Positions 29,756 through 33,678 of a DNA stretch of 43,634 nucleotides are shown piece after piece (the first letter of the stretch is position 1; each line of letters begins with the position of its first letter). The notes under the pieces are model-generated. The model was not told the DNA's origin, searched no databases, and saw only the letters and a program-made list of their open reading frames with translations. The translations under genes and the position numbers were made by a program. This DNA comes from Methanobacteriota archaeon (GTDB lineage Archaea; Thermoplasmatota; Poseidoniia; Poseidoniales; Poseidoniaceae). The DNA lies in assembly GCA_004195515.1 (NCBI GenBank), contig PSPR01000024.1:1-43634 (forward strand), given 5' to 3'.

Positions 29756-30592
29756 ATGGGTGACAGACTGAACGTCGAACTCCCTAGTTCGACCTATGAC
29801 CTACAGATAATTCTTGTTGGAATAAATCACCCTGGCAACCTTGGAGCAGTTTGCCGAGCAATGCTAAATCACGGCTTCACAAATTTACGTCTTGTCGCTC
29901 CCGAATGTTCACCATTAGATGAAGAAGCAAGAAACAGAGCTAAACATTCGAGGTCAATTCTAGAACATTCAAAAACATTCGAAACATTTGAGCAATCGAT
30001 CGAGGATTGTTCTTTGGTGGTAGGAACTAGTGGAAAAAGGGAAATCGGTTCCAAAATATTGTCTCGTCATTTTGTTCTACCATGGGAATTTGCTGAAAAA
30101 ATACGAACATATCAAGGCAAAGTAGCATTGGTCTTTGGGGAAGAAGGAAAAGGATTACCCACCGATTTATTGGAAAAGTGCGATTTTCTCCTAACCTTAC
30201 CAACTTGGGATGGCTACCCGATTGCAAACCTTAGCCAAGCGGTTGGACATTGTGTTTACGAATTACATCGCGATAGAGTAATCAGTGGATTAAACGTTTT
30301 AGGAGTTGATCAAAATCGTTCTCTTGACCCAACACTACGACAAATACTTCGCCAATCATTTGATGAATTTGGTCAAGCACTCAGTATCAATAAAAGTGAA
30401 TTAGTTACTGAGGTTTTTGAGAGAATAATAATGAGATCTTTGCCCAATGACAATGAGGCTGAGCGGTTGTTAGGTGCGATAGTTGAGGCAACAACCGCAC
30501 TTCAAAAAGTCAAAGGAGACGATGATTGGCAAAGAAACCGCAGAAAGAAAATCATGCCCGCCAAGTCGCCCAAGACTTCGGAGTCTCTCTGA
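29756..30592 (+). CDS. SpoU/TrmH-family RNA 2'-O-methyltransferase (TrmJ-like)
   Basis: A SAM-dependent, trefoil-knot methyltransferase. Motif 1 is NHPGNLGAVCRAMLNHGFTN. Motif 2 (KVALVFGEEGKGLP) and motif 3 (LPTWDGYPIANLSQAVGHCV) form the knotted cofactor site. TrmJ methylates tRNA ribose at position 32, and the N-terminus and alpha-helical C-terminal tail suit that group; the target is inferred. ATG 29756 follows the upstream stop immediately (TGAATG). Its last 41 bases overlap the convergent QueD gene. Confidence 0.88.
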   Translation: MGDRLNVELPSSTYDLQIILVGINHPGNLGAVCRAMLNHGFTNLRLVAPECSPLDEEARNRAKHSRSILEHSKTFETFEQSIEDCSLVVGTSGKREIGSKILSRHFVLPWEFAEKIRTYQGKVALVFGEEGKGLPTDLLEKCDFLLTLPTWDGYPIANLSQAVGHCVYELHRDRVISGLNVLGVDQNRSLDPTLRQILRQSFDEFGQALSINKSELVTEVFERIIMRSLPNDNEAERLLGAIVEATTALQKVKGDDDWQRNRRKKIMPAKSPKTSESL

Positions 30593-31001
30593 CATTCATA
30601 GCGACCAACTTCAAGCGATTACCGTACGAAGTCTTGATATGTGGTTCGACTTGGTCGAATGCCCATTTTGCCAAATTTTCAGCGGTAGGAATGAATGGTA
30701 CCCGCACAATTCGATGATCGGGTGGTAATTGTTCAAACATTTTCAGTAACAATTCATCGTGCTCGTATACCACGAAAGCATGATCGATAATATCGTGAAC
30801 ATATTGATTTAGTATATTCGAAATATCCGAAAAATCAATCAGCATTCCCTCTTCAGAAACTCCTTTCTCGGTGACAATATCACCTTCAACTTCGGCTTCA
30901 AATCGATAGCGATGCCCGTGCATATGACGGCATTTGCTCTTATGATTAGGTACTCTATGTCCGGTGTCGGTTTCTACATATCTTCGAATTATTGTTGTCA
31001 T
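30552..31001 (-). CDS. queD: 6-carboxy-5,6,7,8-tetrahydropterin synthase
   Basis: Second enzyme of preQ0 synthesis, turning dihydroneopterin triphosphate into carboxytetrahydropterin. Zinc ligands are in DTGHRVPNHKSKCRHMHGHR, which also supplies the catalytic Cys. LIDFSDISNILNQYVHDIID, HAF and FIPTAENLAKW complete the family pattern, and the late conserved Glu is in NVRETP. ATG 31001 has GGAGG eight bases upstream. It is the last gene of the RHH-folE-queE-queC-queD run, two bases after QueC-MsrB. Confidence 0.94.
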   Translation of the reverse strand: MTTIIRRYVETDTGHRVPNHKSKCRHMHGHRYRFEAEVEGDIVTEKGVSEEGMLIDFSDISNILNQYVHDIIDHAFVVYEHDELLLKMFEQLPPDHRIVRVPFIPTAENLAKWAFDQVEPHIKTSYGNRLKLVAMNVRETPKSWATWRA

Positions 31002-31003
31002 TT

Positions 31004-32146
31004 TCATTCCTCCTCAAATTCCATCGATGCCGAGTTTATACAATATCGCTCGCCACCAAAATCTGCTGGGCCATCTTCAAAAACATGACCCAGATGAGCA
31101 TCGCAACTTGCACATTTCACTTCAACACGACTATGGCCTAGTGAATTATCTGCAATTCTTAGAATCCCAGAACTTTCATGCTCGGTATGAAACGAGGGCC
31201 AACCACAACCGGAATCATATTTTGATTTTGATTCAAATAATAAATGATCACAGCAAATGCAACGATAATTACCGTGACGTTTTTCATCCCAATACATACC
31301 GGAAAAAGCGGGCTCTGTAGCAGACTTTCTAGTAACTTGATATTGTAAATCACTCAAACGGTCAAGATATTGTTTATCTTTGTGCGAAGCTTCGGTTCTG
31401 AGAGCAGATTCCAATACATCCTCCCACGAATTTACATATTGAACCGGGTCTTTTCTTCCAATGGCATGGAAGGCTAAAATTCTCTCAACATCAGCACCGC
31501 TAGTACCACTTGAGCGACCGAACTCATCTGGATTATAGGAGGTATTTGTATTGGCAAAAACAACGTCAAAATCTAGATTTAGAGCGCCGATTGCCAACGA
31601 AGCATCTCTAAGAATTAATTCTTTATCTCCCTCGATATATGGCAAATGGAAGGATACTTTTTCAGAATCCCAATTTCCTTCGATGAATGCATGTTCTAGT
31701 GCCGAGTAAAATTCAGGTCGGCAATCGGGATAGATCGCATGATCGCCACTATGAACTCCGAGAGCGATGACGACGTTGGTGTTTTCTCTCAATGCGATTG
31801 AGAGGGCATATCCATAAAGAATCGAGGCAAAGATTGCATTTCGATTGGGTACAACGGTCGCTTTCATTTGATCTTGCTCATAATGTCCTTCAGGAATATC
31901 TTCTCCTCCTTTGAGCAATGCAGATTCAAAAATACCCATCGCACTACTCAAATCGACGATGCTATGGATTACATCGATACCATGTTGGTTGAGATACTCG
32001 ATATTTGCTTTTGCTCTCTCAAGTTCGATGTTGTGTTTTTGGCCATATTCGTAGGAGATACAATCGACCTTGTAACCATCGGCTAATAGTCGCATCAATA
32101 AACCGGTTGAATCCATTCCACCGCTTAATGCCATTACTGCTCTCAT
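31004..32146 (-). CDS. queC: QueC (7-cyano-7-deazaguanine synthase) fused to methionine sulfoxide reductase B
   Basis: One 380-residue protein with two enzymes. Residues about 1-240 are QueC: VMALSGGMDSTGLL is the ATP-pyrophosphatase loop, followed by VVPNRNAIFASILYGYALS, VHSGDHAIYPDCRPEFY and the tail SYNPDEFGRSSGTSGADVER. In QueC that tail carries four zinc cysteines (C...CxxCxxC), here Ser, Ser, Ser and Asp. Residues about 260-380 are MsrB: TEPAFSGMYWDEKRHGNYRC, KYDSGCGWPSF, CASCDAHLGHVFEDGP, and GERYCINSAS with the catalytic Cys. Its two CxxC zinc pairs and resolving Cys are intact. ATG 32146 overlaps the queE stop by one base. No internal stop or restart signal separates the halves. Confidence 0.94.
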   Translation of the reverse strand: MRAVMALSGGMDSTGLLMRLLADGYKVDCISYEYGQKHNIELERAKANIEYLNQHGIDVIHSIVDLSSAMGIFESALLKGGEDIPEGHYEQDQMKATVVPNRNAIFASILYGYALSIALRENTNVVIALGVHSGDHAIYPDCRPEFYSALEHAFIEGNWDSEKVSFHLPYIEGDKELILRDASLAIGALNLDFDVVFANTNTSYNPDEFGRSSGTSGADVERILAFHAIGRKDPVQYVNSWEDVLESALRTEASHKDKQYLDRLSDLQYQVTRKSATEPAFSGMYWDEKRHGNYRCICCDHLLFESKSKYDSGCGWPSFHTEHESSGILRIADNSLGHSRVEVKCASCDAHLGHVFEDGPADFGGERYCINSASMEFEEE

Positions 32147-32742
32147 CAAGCCACCCCCATCCATTTATGGGTCTGTAAAGACAATCGCCAACCAGGATTT
32201 TCTTTGACCAATTTTTCAACGGTTTGAAAGGACTTTCCGTTTTGTTCAACACTATCGGTTTCGATATAGCAAGGCTGAACGAAATGGTGTTCGAAACCTT
32301 GTTTTAAACTATCGTACATGGATAAATCTTGACCACAGTATACCACTTTGAGTTCATTGCCGACCGTCTGTTTTATGGCAACGCTTGGGTAGAGCTGGTC
32401 CTTGGGTGAAACGCAGATCCAATCGATAACATCAGGAACCAGGATTGTGCCATTCGTTTCGATTGAAAGATGAATATTATGCTTTTTTAACTCGGTTCCA
32501 ATTCTATTCAAATCTTGAAGACATGGCTCGCCGCCTGTAAAAATCACTCTATCACAATTAAATGACAGAACTTCAGCAATTATTGTTGAAAGTTCCATCT
32601 CTTCGAATTTCATAAAATCTGTATCGCACCATTCACATCTAAGGTTACAATTTCCAAAGCGAATAAACACATGGGGAATTCCCGCGTGAAAAGCCTCTCC
32701 TTGAACGGAATGGAAAATTTCAACGATTGGATAAGTACTCAA
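32146..32742 (-). CDS. queE: 7-carboxy-7-deazaguanine synthase (radical SAM)
   Basis: Third step of preQ0 synthesis, a radical SAM ring contraction. The cluster motif is CNLRCEWCDTDF, CxxxCxxC, preceded by FHSVQGEAFHAGIPHVFIRF. FTGGEPCLQD (the GGEP motif) and SIETNGT follow, then CVSPKDQ. At 198 residues it is a normal QueE. Its ATG overlaps the folE stop by four bases and its stop overlaps the QueC start, showing tight coupling. Confidence 0.95.
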   Translation of the reverse strand: MSTYPIVEIFHSVQGEAFHAGIPHVFIRFGNCNLRCEWCDTDFMKFEEMELSTIIAEVLSFNCDRVIFTGGEPCLQDLNRIGTELKKHNIHLSIETNGTILVPDVIDWICVSPKDQLYPSVAIKQTVGNELKVVYCGQDLSMYDSLKQGFEHHFVQPCYIETDSVEQNGKSFQTVEKLVKENPGWRLSLQTHKWMGVA

Positions 32743-33311
32743 AGATCTCGGCTCCGAATCAATTGCATTAGTTCAGTTCGCGCTTCGGATTTATCGAAAA
32801 ACACACCGCGCATTGCCGAGGTTGTCATGATACTATTCTGCTTCATCACGCCACGACATTGCATGCAACCATGGGCTGCCTCGATTATCACAGCAGCGCC
32901 AAGTGGATTGAGATGAGTTTCGATATCGTCAGCAACACTCTTTGTGATTCGTTCTTGGTTTTGCAAACGTCGAGCATGTAAGTCAACTATACGAGCTAAT
33001 TTGCTGATTCCAACAATTCGGTCTGTTGGAATGTAAGCGACATGAGCTCGACCTTTGAAAGGCTGAAGATGATGTTCACAGGTCGAATGAAATTCAATAT
33101 CTCTCAACAATACAATGCCATCATAACCTTCCCCATTGAAGGTTGATGCCAAGACTTCAGAGGATTCCTGAGTATATCCTGCAAAGATTTCATCAAAAGA
33201 GTCAATCACTCTTTTTGGAGTTTTTTCTAAGCCTTCTCTAGTTGGATTATTTTCCAAGTAATTCAGCAGAGTGAAAACAGCTTTTTCGGCTTCTTTTCTA
33301 GTAATCATCAT
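32739..33311 (-). CDS. folE: GTP cyclohydrolase I, type IA
   Basis: Makes dihydroneopterin triphosphate from GTP, the entry to preQ0 and to folate-like cofactors. Zinc ligands lie in STCEHHLQPFKGRAHVAYIP and in AAHGCMQCRGVMKQ. VGISKLARIVDLHARRLQNQ and GAAVIIEA are family core. The start is ATG 33311 (or 33308), four to seven bases after GGAGG. It overlaps the RHH stop by one base. Being in the queE-queC-queD operon argues that here it serves 7-deazaguanine synthesis. Confidence 0.96.
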   Translation of the reverse strand: MMITRKEAEKAVFTLLNYLENNPTREGLEKTPKRVIDSFDEIFAGYTQESSEVLASTFNGEGYDGIVLLRDIEFHSTCEHHLQPFKGRAHVAYIPTDRIVGISKLARIVDLHARRLQNQERITKSVADDIETHLNPLGAAVIIEAAHGCMQCRGVMKQNSIMTTSAMRGVFFDKSEARTELMQLIRSRDL

Positions 33312-33583
33312 TATTCCTCCAGACGGCCATGGCGAGCATCGATAATGTCGAGTTGGTCAAGCATCTTACGACAAGCAGTGCGAATAGCATCAGCTACTGA
33401 AATAAATTTTCCATCATCTCCAACATGGAGTTTTATGTCGTCCAGCAATTGTGCTGGCATGTCGAGGCTAACCTTTGGCATGGCCAAGGCTAAAGCCTCA
33501 ATCATATCAAGGTATTCGTATATGAATACTCTACGATTATTTGGATTTATGTGATCTCGCGATTCGAGCGCGCATTCCGCCAT
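33311..33583 (-). CDS. ribbon-helix-helix regulator heading the preQ0 operon
   Basis: The 55-60 C-terminal residues are an RHH DNA-binding fold: MPKVSLDMPAQLLDDIKLHV (beta strand and first helix), then SVADAIRTACRKMLDQLDII (second helix). The start is uncertain. The track's ATG 33583 adds a 34-residue N-terminal stretch (NNRRVFIYEYLDMIEALALA in part), while Met 33505 or 33481 would give a shorter protein closer to a bare RHH. A TATA-like AATATAAT near 33635 agrees best with the long form. It sits at the head of folE-queE-queC-queD with a one-base overlap, and palindromes lie around its promoter, so autoregulation is a reasonable inference. No metal-sensing domain like NikR is attached. Confidence 0.72.
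   Translation of the reverse strand: MAECALESRDHINPNNRRVFIYEYLDMIEALALAMPKVSLDMPAQLLDDIKLHVGDDGKFISVADAIRTACRKMLDQLDIIDARHGRLEE
33512..33529. repeat. inverted repeat GTATTC-N6-GAATAC
   Basis: Perfect six-base arms with a six-base spacer (GTATAT). It overlaps the N-terminal extension of the RHH ORF if the long form is used, or lies just upstream if translation starts at 33481. It could be an operator. Confidence 0.45.
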
Positions 33584-33613
33584 CCCATGCTTGCATACTG
33601 TCGGCTAGGTACC

Positions 33614-33628
33614 TGAAGAGTCTCTTCA
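33614..33628. repeat. palindrome TGAAGAG-T-CTCTTCA
   Basis: Perfect seven-base arms around a single T, placed between the candidate TATA box and the expected transcription start of the RHH-folE operon. A bound repressor there would block polymerase. Confidence 0.5.
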
Positions 33629-33630
33629 TG

Positions 33631-33640
33631 AATTATATTG
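33631..33640 (-). promoter_or_regulatory. candidate TATA box of the RHH-folE-queECD operon
   Basis: On the minus strand the sequence reads CAATATAATT. Its distance predicts transcription starting near 33608-33610, giving about a 25-base leader before ATG 33583. It lies between two palindromes. Confidence 0.45.
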
Positions 33641-33646
33641 TGTAGT

Positions 33647-33665
33647 CGGTGTTATATTAACACCG
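33647..33665. repeat. inverted repeat CGGTGTTA-TAT-TAACACCG
   Basis: Perfect eight-base arms with a three-base centre, just upstream of the preQ0 operon TATA box and 14 bp after the permease stop. It lacks a following T-run on the minus strand, so an operator is more likely than a terminator. Confidence 0.55.
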
Positions 33666-33678
33666 GGGTGGAGAACCC

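Follow-up and report, generated by a model that had tools for sequence, protein, structure and literature searches.

A candidate ribbon-helix-helix autoregulator heading the preQ0 operon of marine Poseidoniales archaea

Ribbon-helix-helix (RHH) autorepressors of the Arc/CopG type, found in bacteria, phages and plasmids, are tiny proteins whose binding units lie one helical turn apart in an operator over their own promoter. In archaea, preQ0 leads to archaeosine. A haloarchaeal RHH regulator, CdrS, has been described from the cdrS-ftsZ2 locus (PMC7439475, PMC8406309), and in Haloferax it seems to act as an activator, from sites that lie upstream of promoters (PMC8406309). In the open-licence literature that was searched, no earlier report of transcriptional regulation of preQ0 or archaeosine genes in archaea, or of such a regulator, was found. 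Here, a candidate regulator of this kind is described from a 43,634-nucleotide stretch of DNA (the window) of a Marine Group II archaeon, not a bacterium, of the order Poseidoniales, whose 1.92-Mb genome is 85% complete.

Like CdrS, the protein is archaeal, consists of a single RHH domain with about 60 residues in all, heads a short operon and has a symmetric motif (here predicted), and the two share a weak profile similarity. Unlike CdrS, it leads folE and que genes instead of ftsZ2 (folE lies directly after the RHH gene in 77 of 77 named loci); it has one predicted target, compared with 18 binding sites for CdrS, and its array abuts the TATA box, whereas CdrS sites lie well upstream. With the Arc/CopG autorepressors it shares its tiny size, an 11-bp spacing that recalls Arc half-sites and an array at its own promoter, but differs from them in the archaeal TATA/BRE promoter, the three units and the pathway served, which makes a tRNA-modification precursor. 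Like preQ1 riboswitches (PMC5372724), the system would exert local control over genes of 7-deazaguanine synthesis, but through a protein and a predicted DNA operator in place of RNA, and in an archaeal pathway towards archaeosine.

On the minus strand of the window, the gene order RHH-folE-queE-queC/msrB-queD constitutes a preQ0-making set by Pfam and TIGRFAM profile matches (Table 1), with RHH and folE overlapping in TAATG. An earlier, sequence-only reading of the window had placed an RHH gene first in this operon and three inverted repeats upstream of it; the profile matches bear out the order, and all three repeats are present where they had been reported.

Table 1. Features of the preQ0 locus and its upstream region (strand "." where a feature is symmetric or unassigned)
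Feature	Position	Strand	Basis or remark
queD	30552..31007	-	PF01242, TIGR03367
queC fused to msrB	31004..32164	-	PF06508 and PF01641
queE, 7-carboxy-7-deazaguanine synthase	32146..32742	-	TIGR04508 E 1e-40, below cut-off; Radical_SAM
folE, GTP cyclohydrolase I	32739..33311	-	PF01227 E 1e-67
Candidate RHH regulator gene, 56 aa (MPKVSLDMPAQLL...), stop 33311-33313	33311..33481	-	Homology; CdrS profile; hhalign
TATA box TTGATAT of RHH operon, -29 to -23 from RHH ATG	33504..33510	-	A+T peak in 90 promoters
GTATTC-ATATAC-GAATAC, two predicted operator units 11 bp apart	33512..33529	.	GTATTCA 33523-33529 and CGAATAC 33512-33518 (minus strand); inverted repeat, 6-bp arms, 6-nt spacer
Degenerate third, upstream unit ATAATCG, 11 bp further	33534..33540	-	Alignment column; profile match 33505-33545
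30-codon gene, unlisted before, MKRLFRYLADSMQAWDGGMRARIARSHKSK	33537..33629	-	Homologues in relatives; purifying selection
TGAAGAG-T-CTCTTCA, in codons 1-5 of small gene	33614..33628	.	Inverted repeat, 7-bp arms, 1-nt loop; absent in relatives
Conserved palindrome CGGTGTTA-TAT-TAACACCG	33647..33665	.	Inverted repeat, 8-bp arms, 3-nt loop; read as promoter of small gene, not of RHH operon
Putative small-gene TATA box TTAATATAA, inside palindrome, -31 to -23 from small-gene ATG	33652..33660	-	Sequence

The start of the RHH gene was set at position 33481, which is M35 of a mechanical 90-codon ORF, since the alignment of relatives begins at this residue and many of them carry stop codons upstream; the 90-aa start was rejected on these grounds. 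Across the order the protein is strongly conserved, 53–63 residues long, with the N-terminus MPK[VI]SLD. Against the CdrS family NF058555 it scored 22.5 bits (E 8e-5), far below the cut-off of 100, and none of 41 genomes gave a match to this family above cut-off; with 22.5 of 100 bits and no ftsZ2 synteny, identification as CdrS was rejected. No significant direct Pfam match, RHH_1 included, was found for the protein, and Pfam Arc gave a weak match (E 0.0047) in only 1 of 12 family members. Alignment of the family by hhalign with paralogues that match Pfam RHH_1 above cut-off gave a probability of 90 and an E value of 1.7e-6. In a monomer model of middling confidence (pLDDT 76), the N-terminal residues are unpaired and helices span residues 10–19 and 29–50; a fold search with this model returned no usable PDB match. 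These profile relationships, weak in score, point to membership of the ribbon-helix-helix (MetJ/Arc/CopG) superfamily.

The upstream region was compared across about 130 related loci in all. When the promoters of 49 genomes were stacked, a repeated unit, GTATTAC/GTAATAC or CGAATAC, was seen before the RHH ATG, usually three times, with 53 pairs of units at 11 bp, 17 at 22 bp and few at other distances. A further 77 loci, drawn from named records and largely overlapping in species with the 49-genome set, held 130 pairs at 11 bp and 64 at 22 bp, versus 5 and 2 in 1486 control windows of downstream coding DNA. The consensus array, GTAWTAC/CGAATAC, consists of three units with an exact 11-bp period, and the TATA box adjoins its end; it persists throughout the order and recurs in a second family of the same class. 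The window's own two units are weaker, each agreeing with GTAWTAC at 5 of 7 positions, and its third unit overlaps the stop codon of a small ORF. As judged by this conservation, GTATTC-N6-GAATAC is a real regulatory element, a weaker form of the three-unit array.

Among 90 distinct RHH promoters, a TATA-like block with an A+T content of 89–100% is fixed at -26 to -23, and a Shine-Dalgarno-like motif could be found in just 5. The position of this block and the rarity of such motifs suggest that the RHH transcript is leaderless and starts at the ATG. Of the three units, the one closest to the TATA box lies at about -36 to -30, the expected location of the BRE, and the other two begin near -57 and -46. 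A further feature of the same 90 promoters is a G/C doublet, with 98% and 91% G+C at positions -9/-8 relative to the start codon; a weaker dip is seen genome-wide in one genome (G036, 174 genes), and leaderless promoters of the order may share this element generally.

The specificity of the array was then examined at the genome scale. The pattern GTATTMN6KAATAC has a single match in the window's 1.92-Mb genome, at this promoter, and the exact pattern GTATTACN4GTAATAC, with no mismatch, occurs seven times in 61 genomes, every time at an RHH promoter. A sequence-only profile of the array, built from 36 promoters, found a match in 46 of the 61 genomes, essentially all at the RHH promoter; this sensitivity is partly circular, most matches being training sequences, which is not so for the near-absence of other targets. 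Two weak matches were found elsewhere in the 61 genomes (E 0.013 and 0.022), and none in the 8 genomes that lack folE, in a scan that scored up to 104 candidates per genome in full and so may miss weak sites. A wider regulon for the array was rejected, as none was seen in the 61 genomes by exact pattern or profile. The array is therefore best described as a conserved predicted operator confined almost wholly to the RHH gene's own promoter.

The RHH gene was found in 51 of the 61 genomes, FolE in 53 and QueC in 53; in the two genomes with FolE and without RHH, FolE sits at the first bases of its contig. This co-absence of RHH and folE adds little, being partly trivial for adjacent genes in incomplete MAGs. 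The succession RHH-folE-queE-queC is as conserved as the array. Over 390 genomes of the phylum, clear RHH matches are confined to the order and to a single genome from a different family of the class (G203), which has the same array, RHH gene and operon, with one membrane-protein gene between RHH and folE. This Poseidoniales locus is also carried by a contig labelled Phycisphaerae bacterium (L124, NZFX01000056.1), which is likely mis-binned.

We propose, with a probability of roughly 0.7, that the preQ0 operon is governed by a dedicated, local, single-target autoregulator, the RHH protein at its head, which would act by negative autoregulation through the array. We infer the RHH protein to be the binder of the array, where its dimers would occupy the three short units GTAWTAC/CGAATAC on one face of the DNA, given their spacing of exactly 11 bp, and presumably cooperatively. 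Because the gene-proximal unit directly adjoins the TATA box, at the place of the BRE, access of TBP/TFB would most likely be blocked. The effect of binding would then probably be repression of the presumably leaderless RHH-folE-queE-queC-queD transcript, that is, negative autoregulation. Homeostatic autoregulation or a partner protein would be likelier than direct sensing of preQ0, as 56 residues leave little room for a ligand domain. With somewhat more belief than doubt, we extend this proposal to a 56-aa RHH family wholly dedicated to preQ0/archaeosine-precursor synthesis. Throughout a class of uncultured marine archaea, such a protein would have its own operon as sole target and would act on an operator of three units, phased at 11 bp and adjacent to the TATA box. 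The locus offers a concrete candidate regulator, operator and promoter, testable with a 56-aa protein and 40 bp of DNA.

It is also conceivable, if unlikely, that the RHH protein binds the array but activates the operon, the mode proposed for Haloferax CdrS, with TBP/TFB recruited from a position immediately upstream of the TATA box. Two units of the array do lie upstream of the BRE, and CdrS binds 41–110 nt upstream of start sites, its depletion lowering ftsZ1 (PMC8406309); the third unit, nearest the TATA box, would however clash with TFB at the BRE. We consider it improbable that some other transcription factor uses the array as its operator and that the RHH protein acts elsewhere. Such a factor is at hand in a two-domain paralogue with a true Pfam RHH_1 domain, which is encoded in these genomes and could bind a similar site, but the array profile finds almost no other target, and none in the 8 genomes without RHH and folE. 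Moreover, the array is placed at the RHH gene itself, and it still precedes RHH in G203, where another gene separates RHH from folE. In several Poseidoniales genomes (L116, L119 and L120) this second RHH paralogue, of about 120–150 aa, is found upstream of an apparent helicase gene.

The other two palindromes are associated with a small gene flanked by the RHH promoter and, upstream, by an ABC permease gene. Homologues were found at the same place in 9 other compared genomes of the genus and in the contig L124, amounting to about 11 species of one genus, and their peptides follow the pattern M....L...M..WDGG....IAKSK; in one further locus (L016), seemingly just the decayed 3' end of the gene is left. 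Pooled pN was 0.31 against a pS of 0.62, with close pairs down to 0.02 versus 0.52, and by this sequence measure the small gene is under purifying selection in the relatives. Most relatives have GGTGTAAATATTACACC between a TATA-like block and the small-gene ATG; the palindrome of the window is shifted upstream by about 18 nt compared with these and covers the small gene's putative TATA box. Because of this placement at the gene's TATA-like block or ATG, in relatives and window alike, we take CGGTGTTA-TAT-TAACACCG to be part of the small gene's promoter. For GGTGTWNWWWNWACACC, the idea of a wider regulon was rejected, the off-locus matches being few, scattered and as rare as the control, and the inspected sites having no common function. 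The repeat TGAAGAG-T-CTCTTCA occurs in one species only and is probably incidental. Comparative anatomy thus tells the true operator from the palindromes of a hidden small gene.

In dinucleotide shuffles of the 200-bp stretch that holds the palindromes, 0.38 repeats were expected (arms of at least 6, loop of at most 6), with a probability of about 0.02 for at least three repeats and about 0.014 for at least two with arms of at least 7; the palindrome set is unusual relative to shuffled sequence, modestly so by statistics alone. All the palindromes lie within 190 bp upstream of the RHH gene, and the sequence-only reading had treated them as a single control region for the RHH operon and AATATAAT as the TATA box of that operon. 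Comparison with related loci led us to reject this arrangement, which is now very improbable: AATATAAT (33632-33639, minus strand) lies over 150 nt away from the start of the RHH gene and just 3–10 nt before the small-gene ATG, two of the palindromes lie over the conserved small gene, absent in most relatives, and the GTATTAC array and its TATA box stay at a near-fixed distance from the ATG. The true box of the RHH operon is TTGATAT. On alignment, which that reading had suggested as a check, GTATTC-N6-GAATAC was kept, CGGTGTTA-TAT-TAACACCG was kept as well but belongs with the small gene, and TGAAGAG-T-CTCTTCA was not kept. Conservation, and the almost exclusive placement of the array at this promoter, give good support to the idea that the RHH protein controls its own preQ0 operon, although only one palindrome of the three would belong to that control.

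Control by a preQ1 or preQ0 riboswitch in the leader, common as it is for bacterial queuosine genes (PMC5372724), is scarcely credible here, since the promoter geometry leaves no leader, and an Rfam search that included the preQ1 families, with E values up to 1, gave no match bar a chance snoRNA elsewhere. The archaeosine enzyme arcTGT is encoded in 57 of the 61 genomes, including all 8 without the preQ0 operon. The contrast with preQ1 riboswitches drawn from the sequence alone was thus misplaced, the host being an archaeon with arcTGT, whose preQ0 feeds archaeosine, and without a riboswitch match. Eight genomes (G003, G014, G016, G017, G033, G049, G050 and G053) lack folE, queC and RHH yet encode arcTGT. 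A preQ0 importer of the YhhQ/COG1738 type was found in 0 of the 61 genomes, and on this ground YhhQ-type import was rejected for those without the operon; these eight may either take up preQ0 by an unknown route or have lost the locus from an incomplete assembly. The fusion of queC to the methionine sulfoxide reductase gene msrB is present in some relatives and absent from others, as the lengths of the open frames suggest.
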